Assembly: GCA_017440575.1 (NCBI GenBank)
Contig: JAFSGY010000084.1
Span: 1 to 34,066, forward strand
Origin: Lachnospiraceae bacterium
GTDB taxonomy: Bacteria; Bacillota; Clostridia; Lachnospirales; Lachnospiraceae
Direction of reading: 5' to 3'
Length of the DNA stretch: 34,066 bases
Shown here: in pieces, positions 27,386-29,762 of the stretch
How the letters are laid out: every line of letters starts with the position of its first letter
How positions within the stretch are numbered: position 1 is the first letter of the stretch
Translations under genes and position numbers: made by a program
Notes under the pieces: generated by a model
Told to the model about the DNA's origin: nothing
The model's input: only the letters and a program-made list of their open reading frames with translations
Database searches by the model: none

Positions 27386-27964
27386 ATGGAAGAAAAAAAT
27401 ACGCGTGAAGTTATTATGCAGGCGGCTTTGTCGTTGTTTGCGGTTAGAGGATATGCTGCGGTGTCAATGAGAGATATCGCGTCAGCAGTTGGAATACGTC
27501 CAAGCTCTATTTATTATCATTTCAGTGCGAAGCAGGAATTGTTCAATGCGCTAATCCAAAAGGCAAATGACATTAAGGATGGGTTAAAGATTAATTTTAT
27601 GAAGGCATTGGAGCAGGTGGCAAGTGTTGAAGAGGAGCCGTTTGTACAAGCCGGTTTATTTTCAGTAACGGGATATCTACAAAACCCACAGATTGCACCG
27701 CTTTTACAGGTTTTGGAATGCGAACGATTTCATAATGAAGAGGCTGATAAGGCTTGGAAAGAGCTGTTGATTGAAGCACCTCTGGAGCATCAGATAGCAG
27801 TATTTCGCATTTTAAAAGAAAGAAATGAGTTGATAGAGGCTGACGTAGAAGAGTTGGCAGCAGAGTATCAGTCTGCAATCTTGTTGGCATATTTTACGGG
27901 AGATTTGACCCAGTTTGAAAAGCAGTTAAGGTGTTTTTATAAGAGAACCATACAGAAAAAATGA
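27386..27964 (+). CDS. TetR/AcrR family transcriptional regulator
   Basis: A 192-residue repressor-type protein. Residues 5-50 form the TetR helix-turn-helix: REVIMQAALSLFAVRGYAAV, then SMRDIASAVGIRPSSIYYHF, followed by SAKQELFNAL. The C-terminal ligand-binding domain is divergent, so the inducer cannot be predicted. AGAAGAGG lies 7 nt before the ATG. It is last in a three-gene operon and probably represses it through the palindrome next to the operon promoter. Its stop codon touches the -35 of the next promoter, with no visible terminator. Confidence 0.9.
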   Translation: MEEKNTREVIMQAALSLFAVRGYAAVSMRDIASAVGIRPSSIYYHFSAKQELFNALIQKANDIKDGLKINFMKALEQVASVEEEPFVQAGLFSVTGYLQNPQIAPLLQVLECERFHNEEADKAWKELLIEAPLEHQIAVFRILKERNELIEADVEELAAEYQSAILLAYFTGDLTQFEKQLRCFYKRTIQKK

Positions 27965-27994
27965 TTGACACTTTATGAGACTATGTGTTAGACT
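27965..27994 (+). promoter_or_regulatory. Promoter of the aspS leader
   Basis: TTGACA (27965-27970), an 18-bp spacer, TAGACT (27989-27994), with TG at 27986-27987 giving an extended -10. Transcription should start near 28001, about 28 nt before the leader peptide. Confidence 0.75.
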
Positions 27995-28028
27995 AACAAA
28001 CAATAATTAAGAAACGAGGAAGTTATCA

Positions 28029-28079
28029 ATGCAGATGTATGTAATTCAGTTTAACAAACTGAACAGGGACGACGATTGA
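28029..28079 (+). CDS. Leader peptide with Asn and Asp control codons
   Basis: A 16-codon ORF, MQMYVIQFNKLNRDDD then TGA. GAGGAAG (28016-28022) is an ideal ribosome site 6 nt before the ATG. Two Asn codons (28053, 28062) and three consecutive Asp codons (28068-28076) end directly at the stop. The two GAC codons also form part of the first leader stem. The next real gene encodes an aspartyl-tRNA synthetase. Promoter, ribosome site, codon content, stem position and terminator together make a regulatory leader peptide far more likely than chance. Not confirmed by comparison with other genomes. Confidence 0.75.
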   Translation: MQMYVIQFNKLNRDDD

Positions 28080-28164
28080 TAGCGCTTGTAGCTGGTAAGG
28101 AACAGGTACAAGCGCTTATTGTCGTTGTACCTGTGTGGATAAAAGAATAGAGACCACACTGGTA
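28069..28164 (+). promoter_or_regulatory. Attenuator RNA: mutually exclusive stems controlling aspS
   Basis: Three overlapping pairings are visible. Stem A: AGCGCTTGTA (28081-28090) with TACAAGCGCT (28107-28116), extended by ACGAC (28069-28073) with GTCGT (28121-28125). Stem B: ACAGGTAC (28102-28109) with GTACCTGT (28127-28134), which excludes stem A. Stem C: TACC-T-GTGTGG (28128-28138) with CCACAC-T-GGTA (28154-28164), 10 bp with one T-T mismatch; it copies the 3' arm of the terminator and so acts as antiterminator, excluded by stem B. Expected logic: a ribosome halted at the first Asp codon or earlier leaves stem A free to form, which frees stem C and allows readthrough; one reaching the stop codon covers 28081-28090, favouring stem B and termination. 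No T-box consensus was seen. Confidence 0.7.
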
Positions 28165-28195
28165 AGAAGAAAAATGTTACCCGTGTGGTCTTTTT
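28151..28195 (+). terminator. Attenuator terminator in the aspS leader
   Basis: AGACCACAC-T-GGTAA (28151-28165) pairs with TTACC-C-GTGTGGTCT (28177-28191), 14 bp with one mismatch, 11-nt loop, then TTTTT. Very stable, and 230 nt before aspS. Confidence 0.9.
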
Positions 28196-28424
28196 GTATG
28201 CAAATGTCAAGAGTAGGAGATTATGTGTCTTAATTTCTTCCTTGGCTTTGAAGTTCCATACGGATGAAGAAAGGTTGTGATCGTATGGGACATAAAGATG
28301 ATGTCCTTAAGGATAATATTGAGAATCTAATAAATAAAAGATGATTAATACAGTGTATTTGTGTTTTGGATTAATGTGAGAAACATGAAAAAGTTTATAT
28401 ACCAAGAAAGGACATAATAAAAAT
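28196..28424 (+). other. Post-terminator leader with small Asp/Asn-rich ORF
   Basis: This 229-nt stretch lies between the attenuator terminator and aspS. It has a 14-codon frame (MCLNFFLGFEVPYG) near 28224 behind AGGAG, and a 19-codon frame at 28285-28344 (MGHKDDVLKDNIENLINKR) with AAAGG upstream, in which six codons are Asp or Asn. CCATACG (28256-28262) pairs with CGTATGG (28282-28288), covering the start of the second frame, and GGACAT pairs with ATGTCC at 28288-28306. It may be a second leader segment or the decayed start of a gene; the MGHKDxxLKD opening also recalls Rpn-family N-termini. Confidence 0.3.
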
Positions 28425-29762
28425 ATGGAAAATAAGATTAATAGAATAAACGGAATAATTGAAAATATGACAGTTGATGCAGAAGAATTAAAAGTACATA
28501 TTGGTAAAACTGTAAGAATCCATGGAAGTATCTATAAGATACGCAAAATGAGTGACTTTGCATTTGTGTTATTAAGAACAAAACGAACGGTTGTACAGTG
28601 TGTATATGCCAAGGAATTTAGTAACTTCGAATTAGATGAGCTGGCAGAGGAAAGCTGTGTAATAGTAACAGCAGAGGTTATACAAGAGGAGCGAGCAAAA
28701 GTTGGTTATGAGCTTCGCATGATAGAAGTAGATATCCTGTCTGAACCAAGTGAAGTATCGCCAATTGTTATGAACCAGAAAAAGGTGGATACTTCATTAG
28801 AAAATCTATTGGATTATAGACCAGTTACGCTGCGAAATGAAAAAGAGCGAGCAATCTTCAAGCTTCAGGAGGGGATTGCAGCAGGCTTTCGTCAGTTTCT
28901 TATGAGTAACGGTTTTACGGAGATTCATTCACCGAAAATCGTGGCAGAAGGTGCCGAGGGTGGTGCCAATATCTTTAAGCTTGATTATTTCGGAAAGGAA
29001 GCATATCTGGCGCAAAGTCCACAGTTTTATAAACAAATGATGGTAGGTGTATTTGAAAGAGTATTTGAGATTAGCTCTGTTTTCAGAGCAGAGAAGCATG
29101 ATACCTCAAGACACTTAAATGAATATACAGGTGTAGACTTTGAGATGGGGTATATAAGTGACTTCACCGAAATTATGGAAATGGAGACGGCAATGTTGAA
29201 AAATACAATGAAGTATTTAGAAGAGAAGTATGCCTTAGAGCTTGCATTATTGAAGTTAAAATTGCCGGAAATAGAAGAGATTCCTTCTGTGAAGTTTATA
29301 GATGCAAAGCAAATGGTTTCAGAAGCTTATAACCGTGAAATTCGGGATTATGAAGACTTTGAGCCGGAGGAAGAAAAGCTGTTATGTGAGCTGATACAAA
29401 AGAAAACAGGTAGTGAATTTGTATTTGTGACACACTATCCAAGTAAAAAGCGTCCATTTTACGCGATGGAGAATCCTGAGAATATAGAAGAAACTTTAAG
29501 CTTTGACCTTCTTTTCAGAGGCCTTGAGATTACAACCGGTGGTCAGAGAATTCATAATTATGAAATGCAGCTTGAGAAGATGAGAAAACGAGGTATGAAA
29601 CAGGAGCATTTTGAAGGCTATCTTATGGCACATAAGTATGGATTACCGCCTCATGGTGGTCTGGGACTTGGACTGGAACGCTTTACGGCAAAGCTTCTTG
29701 GATTTGAAAATGTGAGAAATGCGACTCTGTTTCCAAGAGATATTAACAGACTGGTGCCGTAA
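28425..29762 (+). CDS. aspS: Aspartyl-tRNA synthetase, archaeal-type
   Basis: Charges tRNA with aspartate in the cytosol. The 445-residue length, without the GAD insertion of the roughly 590-residue bacterial AspRS, places it in the archaeal/eukaryotic-type group, many bacterial members of which are non-discriminating and also charge tRNA-Asn. An OB-fold anticodon domain (about 25-110) is followed by the class II core: QSPQFYKQ (197-204), diagnostic of AspRS rather than AsnRS; motif 2 FRAEKHDTSRHLNE (220-233); GGQRIHNYEMQ; motif 3 GLGLERF (414-420). The start at 28425 has AAAGGA 13 nt upstream, a slightly long spacing. The leader with Asn and Asp codons suggests control by charging of those tRNAs. 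Whether the cell has a second AspRS is not visible. Confidence 0.93.
   Translation: MENKINRINGIIENMTVDAEELKVHIGKTVRIHGSIYKIRKMSDFAFVLLRTKRTVVQCVYAKEFSNFELDELAEESCVIVTAEVIQEERAKVGYELRMIEVDILSEPSEVSPIVMNQKKVDTSLENLLDYRPVTLRNEKERAIFKLQEGIAAGFRQFLMSNGFTEIHSPKIVAEGAEGGANIFKLDYFGKEAYLAQSPQFYKQMMVGVFERVFEISSVFRAEKHDTSRHLNEYTGVDFEMGYISDFTEIMEMETAMLKNTMKYLEEKYALELALLKLKLPEIEEIPSVKFIDAKQMVSEAYNREIRDYEDFEPEEEKLLCELIQKKTGSEFVFVTHYPSKKRPFYAMENPENIEETLSFDLLFRGLEITTGGQRIHNYEMQLEKMRKRGMKQEHFEGYLMAHKYGLPPHGGLGLGLERFTAKLLGFENVRNATLFPRDINRLVP

Follow-up and report, generated by a model that had tools for sequence, protein, structure and literature searches.

A T-box turns on a synthetase gene when the tRNA of that synthetase is uncharged, and it reads the tRNA directly. 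A 2010 paper by Lopatovskaya et al., cited in PMC4833913, deals, going by its title, with the prediction of attenuation for aminoacyl-tRNA operons throughout the bacteria. In the his operon of E. coli and Salmonella, as described in the available part of PMC1183508, a leader ORF carries regulatory codons, a stalled ribosome permits an antiterminator, and an extra hairpin beside the terminator otherwise blocks the antiterminator. For hisS*/hisZ in Firmicutes, leader peptides in place of T-boxes were reported (PMC2965389, available part), one of the three aspS genes of C. acetobutylicum has a T-box leader (PMC2494555, available part), and a 'tRNA synthetase leader' is listed for aspS in Shewanella (PMC2659441, available part). 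The main text of PMC6429828, to the extent available, does not contain aspS. A leader-peptide attenuator with Asp codons was not found in the open-access literature, which leaves most subscription journals outside, so 'not described' is provisional.

Here we analysed a window of 34,066 nt, which is contig C39 of a Lachnospiraceae bacterium assembly (2.83 Mb, 78% complete). We suggest, with a probability of roughly 0.88, that an element in this window works by ribosome-mediated transcription attenuation, with charged tRNA-Asp as the signal and an accessory aspartyl-tRNA synthetase (AspRS) as the target.

The aspS2 locus and its leader

The gene downstream of the element (aspS2, 28425..29762, + strand) encodes a protein of 445 aa that by sequence is AspRS2, a member of the archaeal-type, nondiscriminating AspRS family. 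The product passed the NCBIfam cut-offs for NF003483 (552.6 bits, cut-off 353) and TIGR00458 (378.2 bits, cut-off 368.4), and its best PDB sequence match was 1n9w, a nondiscriminating archaeal-type AspRS. Among the matches listed, the nearest records came from Lachnospiraceae. The genome also encodes an AsnRS and, in a hisS-aspS pair, an AspRS of the bacterial type, and aspS2 is therefore a second copy. Farther along the window, a TPP riboswitch (RF00059, 29907-30046) and then a terminator-like site were seen before thi-type genes.

The gene upstream of the element stops at 27964 and is followed by a putative sigma-70-type promoter (27965..27994, +) that reads TTGACA-18-TAGACT, has a TG just ahead of the -10 and matches 10 of 12 consensus positions. 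It was among the two best candidates in a promoter scan. Because the scan gave 14 candidates and shuffled sequences gave 9.5 (sd 3.0), this promoter is plausible, not proven. Next comes a Shine-Dalgarno sequence (SD), GAGGAAG (28016..28022, +), and the 16-codon leader ORF1 (28029..28079, +, ATG at 28029), MQMYVIQFNKLNRDDD-stop, which ends NRDDD-stop with the Asp codons GAC GAC GAT at 28068-28076 (+). Within ORF1, strand A (28063..28074, +; ACAGG and ACGACG) can, according to RNAalifold and pair counts, pair with 28123-28134 if it is free of the ribosome.

Four further helices follow on the + strand. Stem A (28081..28116; 28081-28090/28107-28116, -22.0 kcal/mol) opens at +13, counted from the first base of the first Asp codon. 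Stem B (28102..28134; 28102-28109/28127-28134, -16.9 kcal/mol) excludes stem A and sequesters the antiterminator strand. The antiterminator (28128..28164; 28128-28138/28154-28164, -12.8 kcal/mol) is followed by an intrinsic terminator (28152..28195; 28152-28165/28177-28190, -22.3 kcal/mol) with T5 at 28191-28195. The fold of 28000-28200 had a z of -8.56 relative to shuffles, none of 200 shuffles being as good. A first-pass annotation of the sequence had placed the promoter, ribosome site, ORF, stems, antiterminator and terminator exactly where we find them, with the promoter no better than plausible. Its 14-bp terminator was roughly right and consists of 8 and 5 pairs around one mismatch, to which the fold adds pairs towards the tail. 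A simple terminator scan did not list 28152..28195, as the loop is longer than the limit of the scan.

Conservation and spread of the Asp codons

To describe the leader in relatives we used the best 80 aspS2 loci (more than 80 exist) together with a genome survey in which 9 of 60 genomes, including the window's own, had aspS2. With a regular expression that left both start codon and spacing free, the leader was detected in 76 loci, and one more (L044) was recognized by eye, giving 77 of 89 oriented aspS2 loci. When L088 was excluded, the leader lay upstream of 76 of the 88 loci examined; L088 is the same as L040 here and was dropped from most counts. A covariance model, R1, built from 56 loci recovered all 15 leader loci not used in building it (L023, L030, L048-L051, L054, L056, L065, L070, L074, L081, L082, L084 and L086). 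It additionally recovered two leaders, a diverged one in L053 (37.3 bits) and, in L011, one truncated where the contig ends; L077 had just 250 nt of upstream sequence. Beyond these three, the nine aspS2 loci without the leader formed one clade, in which six had a T-box core, L091 had an Rfam T-box match, and L093 and L094 had neither.

The window, as already annotated, and the other leader loci lack a T-box: the core was found in 0 of 77 leader loci, the window had no core with up to two mismatches, and Rfam gave no match up to E 1 in 27950-28430. The T-box reading was dropped for the leader loci, and so was any known Rfam family for the element.

In the family, the leader pattern gave 16 matches in 16 of 397 genomes, including the window's own, and the reversed control gave none; some of these genomes are of the same species as aspS2 survey loci. 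All 16 matches were followed by an AspRS gene, 14 times archaeal-type aspS2 and twice (L104 in genome G391, L108 in G308) a second, bacterial-type AspRS. A further bacterial-type aspS with 39-42% identity to the L108 query was present in 9 of 9 genomes checked, in the two with the bacterial-type leader target in addition to that target, and is taken as the housekeeping gene. By these comparisons, the common denominator of the leader targets is a second AspRS, and with the run DDD before AspRS genes the putative regulatory codons match what the gene does. In G391, two further AspRS-like pieces were seen (L136 at G391:C39 and L137 at G391:C69); L137 has a T-box core, and one more AspRS copy under regulation may be present in this genome.

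Outside the family, R1 found the leader in 2 of 196 genomes of the order (the window's own and G038, from another family) and in 1 of 348 genomes of the phylum (the window's own), in scans where several hundred candidates per genome came out of the first look, of which 13-23 were scored, and which could miss weak copies. Opposite-strand matches of R1 coincided with forward ones, as expected of palindromic stems, and were not counted. No plasmid copies of 27960-28424 were found.

In 70 of the 76 leader loci, the Asp codons were preceded in frame by an ATG that has an SD of four bases or more, compared to a mean of 7.6 and a maximum of 14 when the upstream bases were shuffled in 200 rounds. The other two frames gave 0 of 76 each, a weak control since a stop occurred within four codons in 47 and 44 loci. 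ORF1 thus appears to be a genuine short ORF with an SD and a start codon, and its sequence upstream of the Asp codons is free to vary. The first Asp codon was GAC and the third was GAT in all 76 loci, and the second was GAC in 71, GAT in four and GAA in one, so that GAC-GAC-GAT occurred in 71 loci and DDD in 75, with L089 (DED) as the sole exception.

Two codons before the run, Asn was found in 60 of 76 loci (AAT 39, AAC 21), and the others had CAC (14), TAC (1) or ACC (1). The third base of this codon formed a C-G pair with strand D in 35 loci, a T-A pair in 35 and a T-G pair in four, and was broken in two. On a tree of 74 rows (L065 and L082 left out), this base and its partner in D changed in the same way in a mean of 5.7 of 8 independent pairs and never in opposite ways (sign test, median p 0.031). 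The position is therefore shaped by pairing rather than by Asn. The first-pass annotation had expected a leader that reads both Asn and Asp codons and is conserved in both. The Asp codons and the stems are indeed conserved in relatives; the Asn codon is not, and sensing of Asn was discarded, since the codon is substituted in 16 of 76 loci. The possible double specificity of the enzyme, which had been offered in support, carries no weight here, as the same leader precedes two bacterial-type AspRS genes and the genome has an AsnRS.

Exclusive helices and the position of the ribosome

RNAalifold on 56 sequences showed stem A inside a helix that the codon region forms with strand D. Paired cells amounted to 99.8% in stem A (14 double-change cells, four pairs with double changes), 98.8% in stem B (26 double-change cells) and 98.7% in the codon-D helix (20 double-change cells, all at one pair), and, on 25 sequences, to 94.8% in the antiterminator (8 double-change cells at one pair) and 92.6% in the terminator (23 double-change cells). 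These alignments contained 56 of 68 (A1) and 25 of 44 (A2) references. The covariation score was reached by 0 of 500 shuffles for each of the five helices and was lower for slid versions, and, like all the shuffle and permutation tests here, this comparison is inflated by the relatedness of the loci. For the codon-D helix and the antiterminator, counts of double-change pairs and of pair types did not rise above those of shuffles (476, 500, 486 and 500 of 500). Distinct blocks gave 14 (B:C, 22 blocks), 9 (C:D, 19 blocks), 27 (D:E, 26 blocks) and 109 (E:F, 41 blocks) double-change cells, each reached by 0 of 500 shuffles. On these wider sets the double-change cells of the antiterminator, 27 in all, were spread over 8 pairs (reached by 0 of 500 shuffles). 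An intrinsic terminator and an exclusive, covarying antiterminator thus appear to precede the gene.

The codon-D helix is the least secure of the helices, because leader and D strand both change at one pair only and merged distinct blocks gave no excess over shuffles (282 of 500). By eye, it was not kept in L048-L051, L054 and L056.

The distance from the first Asp codon to stem A was 13 nt in 76 of 77 loci and 12 nt in L071, where 13 had a tied score; in the set of 76 loci the count was 75 (L071 ties), and one of the two placements behind these counts had 13 fixed. With the usual ribosome footprint, +13 is the first free base when the first Asp codon waits in the A site. We propose that in an untranslated leader the codon region (strand A) would pair with strand D and stem A would form, so that D is sequestered, the terminator folds and the gene is off. 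When Asp-tRNA is low, the ribosome would wait at the first Asp codon with strand A inside it, and stem A, just free, would form and prevent stem B. Strand D would then pair with the 5' arm of the terminator and aspS2 would be transcribed (on). A ribosome at the stop codon would cover the 5' strand of stem A, and stem B would sequester D, allowing the terminator to form (off). The hairpin made of the codon-D helix and stem A could also act as an RNA polymerase pause that synchronises the ribosome.

We modelled the ribosome as a mask in the 48 of 77 loci with a confident terminator assignment; the E and F blocks were unsure in the other 29, which were left out of mask folding and of the D:E and E:F counts. 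The antiterminator had a probability above 0.5 in 20 loci without a ribosome, in 39 with the ribosome edge at +13 and in 14, still, with the edge at +22, near the stop, and stem B exceeded 0.5 in 3 of 48 loci at +13 and in 40 of 48 at +22. The three-state logic and the ribosome-edge argument of the first-pass annotation thus agree with both the 13-nt spacing and the modelled folds, and stem B is predicted to be the extra hairpin that, as in the his type, blocks the antiterminator once the ribosome moves on. The antiterminator was also found in 43 to 48 of 48 loci with edges at +4 to +10 and returned in 22 of 48 at +34 and in 38 of 48 at +37, and the model is therefore not specific to the first Asp codon. 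All that it tells apart is a ribosome that has not passed the first Asp codons and one that has reached an early stop. In the window itself, the probability of the antiterminator was 0.85 without a ribosome, 1.0 with a stalled one and 0.66 near the stop. The model thus has a stalled and a finished ribosome select different hairpins, with a weak contrast in the window.

The stop codons lay 9 to 36 nt downstream of the first Asp codon, and in 72 of 76 loci stem B started beyond the edge of a ribosome at the stop codon, compared to a mean of 11.1 and a minimum of 5 violators in 2000 permutations. The near-invariant wobble bases and the third Asp codon (positions homologous to 28068-28076) exceed what a simple stalling model needs. 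A ribosome that has this third codon in its A site would cover most of stem A, and the model does not account for the invariance of the codon and of the wobble bases.

Three other explanations were weighed. The element could be a riboswitch or a leader that binds a protein, with aspartate or AspRS itself as examples of what is bound, and the short ORF would then be incidental. The conservation of AGGGACGACGAT and stem A almost base for base, beyond what coding for Asp needs, would fit such a leader, but the ATG and SD occur far above the shuffled level, the ORF varies freely upstream of DDD, and Rfam has no match in the region. The diverged leader in L053 also bears on this. It has GAT GAT GAT, lacks the AGGG string and encodes a peptide ending T-D-D-D-R-stop, so that the string is lost and DDD is kept through synonymous codons. 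A purely nucleotide-level constraint on GGGACGACGAT is weakened by this locus, and we consider a riboswitch quite improbable. In the same locus (L053:2690-2800), a compensatory change in an otherwise invariant pair of stem A was noticed by eye.

It is also conceivable, if improbable, that a nascent ...x-R-D-D-D peptide arrests the ribosome alone or together with a small molecule, instead of slow decoding of Asp. In favour of this, AGG (Arg) precedes DDD in 73 of 76 loci and DDD has a fixed place relative to the structure, but Arg is replaced by G in two loci, by K in one and by T in L053, the residue before it is N, H, Y or T, and the peptide varies farther upstream. That every pattern match lies before an AspRS gene fits codon sensing. 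Hardly credible is a terminator that merely ends transcription from upstream, with the alternative pairings as a by-product: some terminator is expected after the gene that ends at 27964, but a promoter-like site and an ORF lie in between, the mutually exclusive helices covary, and the pattern occurs solely before AspRS genes (16 of 16). What counts against the attenuator itself is that RNA polymerase in B. subtilis outruns the ribosomes.

An attenuator remains our preferred reading, as sequence comparison shows an ORF with Asp codons at a fixed spacing, the helices and a terminator, and ties the element to AspRS genes. The leader-peptide attenuator with Asp codons that the first-pass annotation had proposed is borne out to this extent by the conserved ORF, codons and helices. 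Slow translation of the three Asp codons at a shortage of aspartyl-tRNA is predicted to switch the synthetase on. This would involve stalling, the order of events outlined above and enough coupling of transcription and translation, with AspRS2 presumably serving as an inducible back-up copy.

A second conserved ORF and relation to known systems

The most unexpected part of the locus is a second conserved ORF with Asp codons, ORF2, in the spacer of about 230 nt between the terminator and aspS2, which the first-pass annotation had not noted. ORF2 (28285..28344, +), MGHKDDVLKDNIENLINKR, has Asp at codons 5 and 10 and was found in 65 of 88 aspS2 loci, namely 65 of the 79 loci of the leader clade (14 without) and 0 of the 9 loci of the other clade. 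It started with ATG in 56 loci and GTG in 9. Its extended SD, AAAGGTTGTGATC (28270..28282, +), is a near complement of the 3' end of 16S rRNA, and the mean anti-SD duplex was -15.8 kcal/mol for ORF2 (65 loci) versus -8.3 kcal/mol for ORF1 (74 loci). Codon 5 was Asp in 65 of 65 loci (GAC 38, GAT 27); the pattern demanded this Asp in the 53 loci so chosen, and the other 12, found by a matrix built on the 53, had it as well. Codon 10, which was not demanded, was also Asp in all 65 (GAT 59, GAC 6), and codon 6 was Asp in 54 and Tyr in 9. Directly after the start codon, a hairpin (28288-28293/28301-28306, +) pairs codons 2-3 with codons 6-7; of seven pairs tested in the 65 loci, four were kept in at least 60 and the others in 59, 53 and, for the outermost, 30.

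In the family, the ORF2 pattern occurred in 8 of 299 genomes, including the window's own. Seven of the matches precede aspS2 and have the leader 151-220 nt upstream. The eighth, L122 (G065:C154), has the terminator and ORF2 with no aspS2 within 1.5 kb downstream, and looks like a remnant after gene loss. A short stretch resembling part of an ABC ATPase was seen by eye downstream of it.

The 3' arm of ORF2 forms a perfect 8-bp pairing with the SD of aspS2 in the window, which is not general. Across 63 of the 65 loci the duplex averaged -6.84 for own partners versus -6.18 for permuted ones, with 1 of 2000 permutations as low, relatedness uncorrected. The accessibility of the aspS2 SD hardly shifted with the position of the ribosome (0.53 to 0.57, 60 loci). 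Tentatively, and with more doubt than belief, we consider two serial Asp sensors, in which ORF1 would set passage through the terminator and ORF2 the translation of aspS2, so that a back-up enzyme is induced at low Asp-tRNA. If so, induction might occur, for instance, when a natural inhibitor poisons the housekeeping AspRS, and the device would show coupling of transcription and translation in Lachnospiraceae.

In place of the T-box that most loci of the other clade have, one aspS2 lineage would have a codon-reading leader. Together with the same leader on bacterial-type AspRS genes, this suggests that sensors are exchanged on genes of one function. The Asp leader would be a natural reporter of charged tRNA-Asp in gut bacteria and points to an inducible spare AspRS, and the pace of the ribosome relative to RNA polymerase in Lachnospiraceae becomes testable at one locus.

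Compared to known systems, the Asp leader shares with the his operon, as far as the available description of that operon goes, an ORF with regulatory codons and the logic of a blocking hairpin. The first-pass annotation saw an inversion of the trp layout; the design is instead the known layout of the his operon. In contrast to the his leader, which has a run of His codons, the Asp leader has three Asp codons, when untranslated it would have its codon region paired with strand D over stem A, and its gene is an aminoacyl-tRNA synthetase in a Firmicutes host. It resembles hisS*/hisZ in bacilli, where a leader-peptide attenuator replaces a T-box before a duplicated synthetase gene, and differs from it in amino acid and gene family, a likeness drawn from the partial description available. 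By title alone, the attenuation of aminoacyl-tRNA operons predicted by Lopatovskaya et al. would also be related. The T-box leaders of aspS (here L078, L090 and L091) are carried by the other AspRS2 clade; unlike a T-box, which the window lacks, the Asp leader would have the ribosome read codons. For other amino acids, switches of this sort are known; the element described here is probably an Asp-specific variant of ribosome-mediated transcription attenuation.
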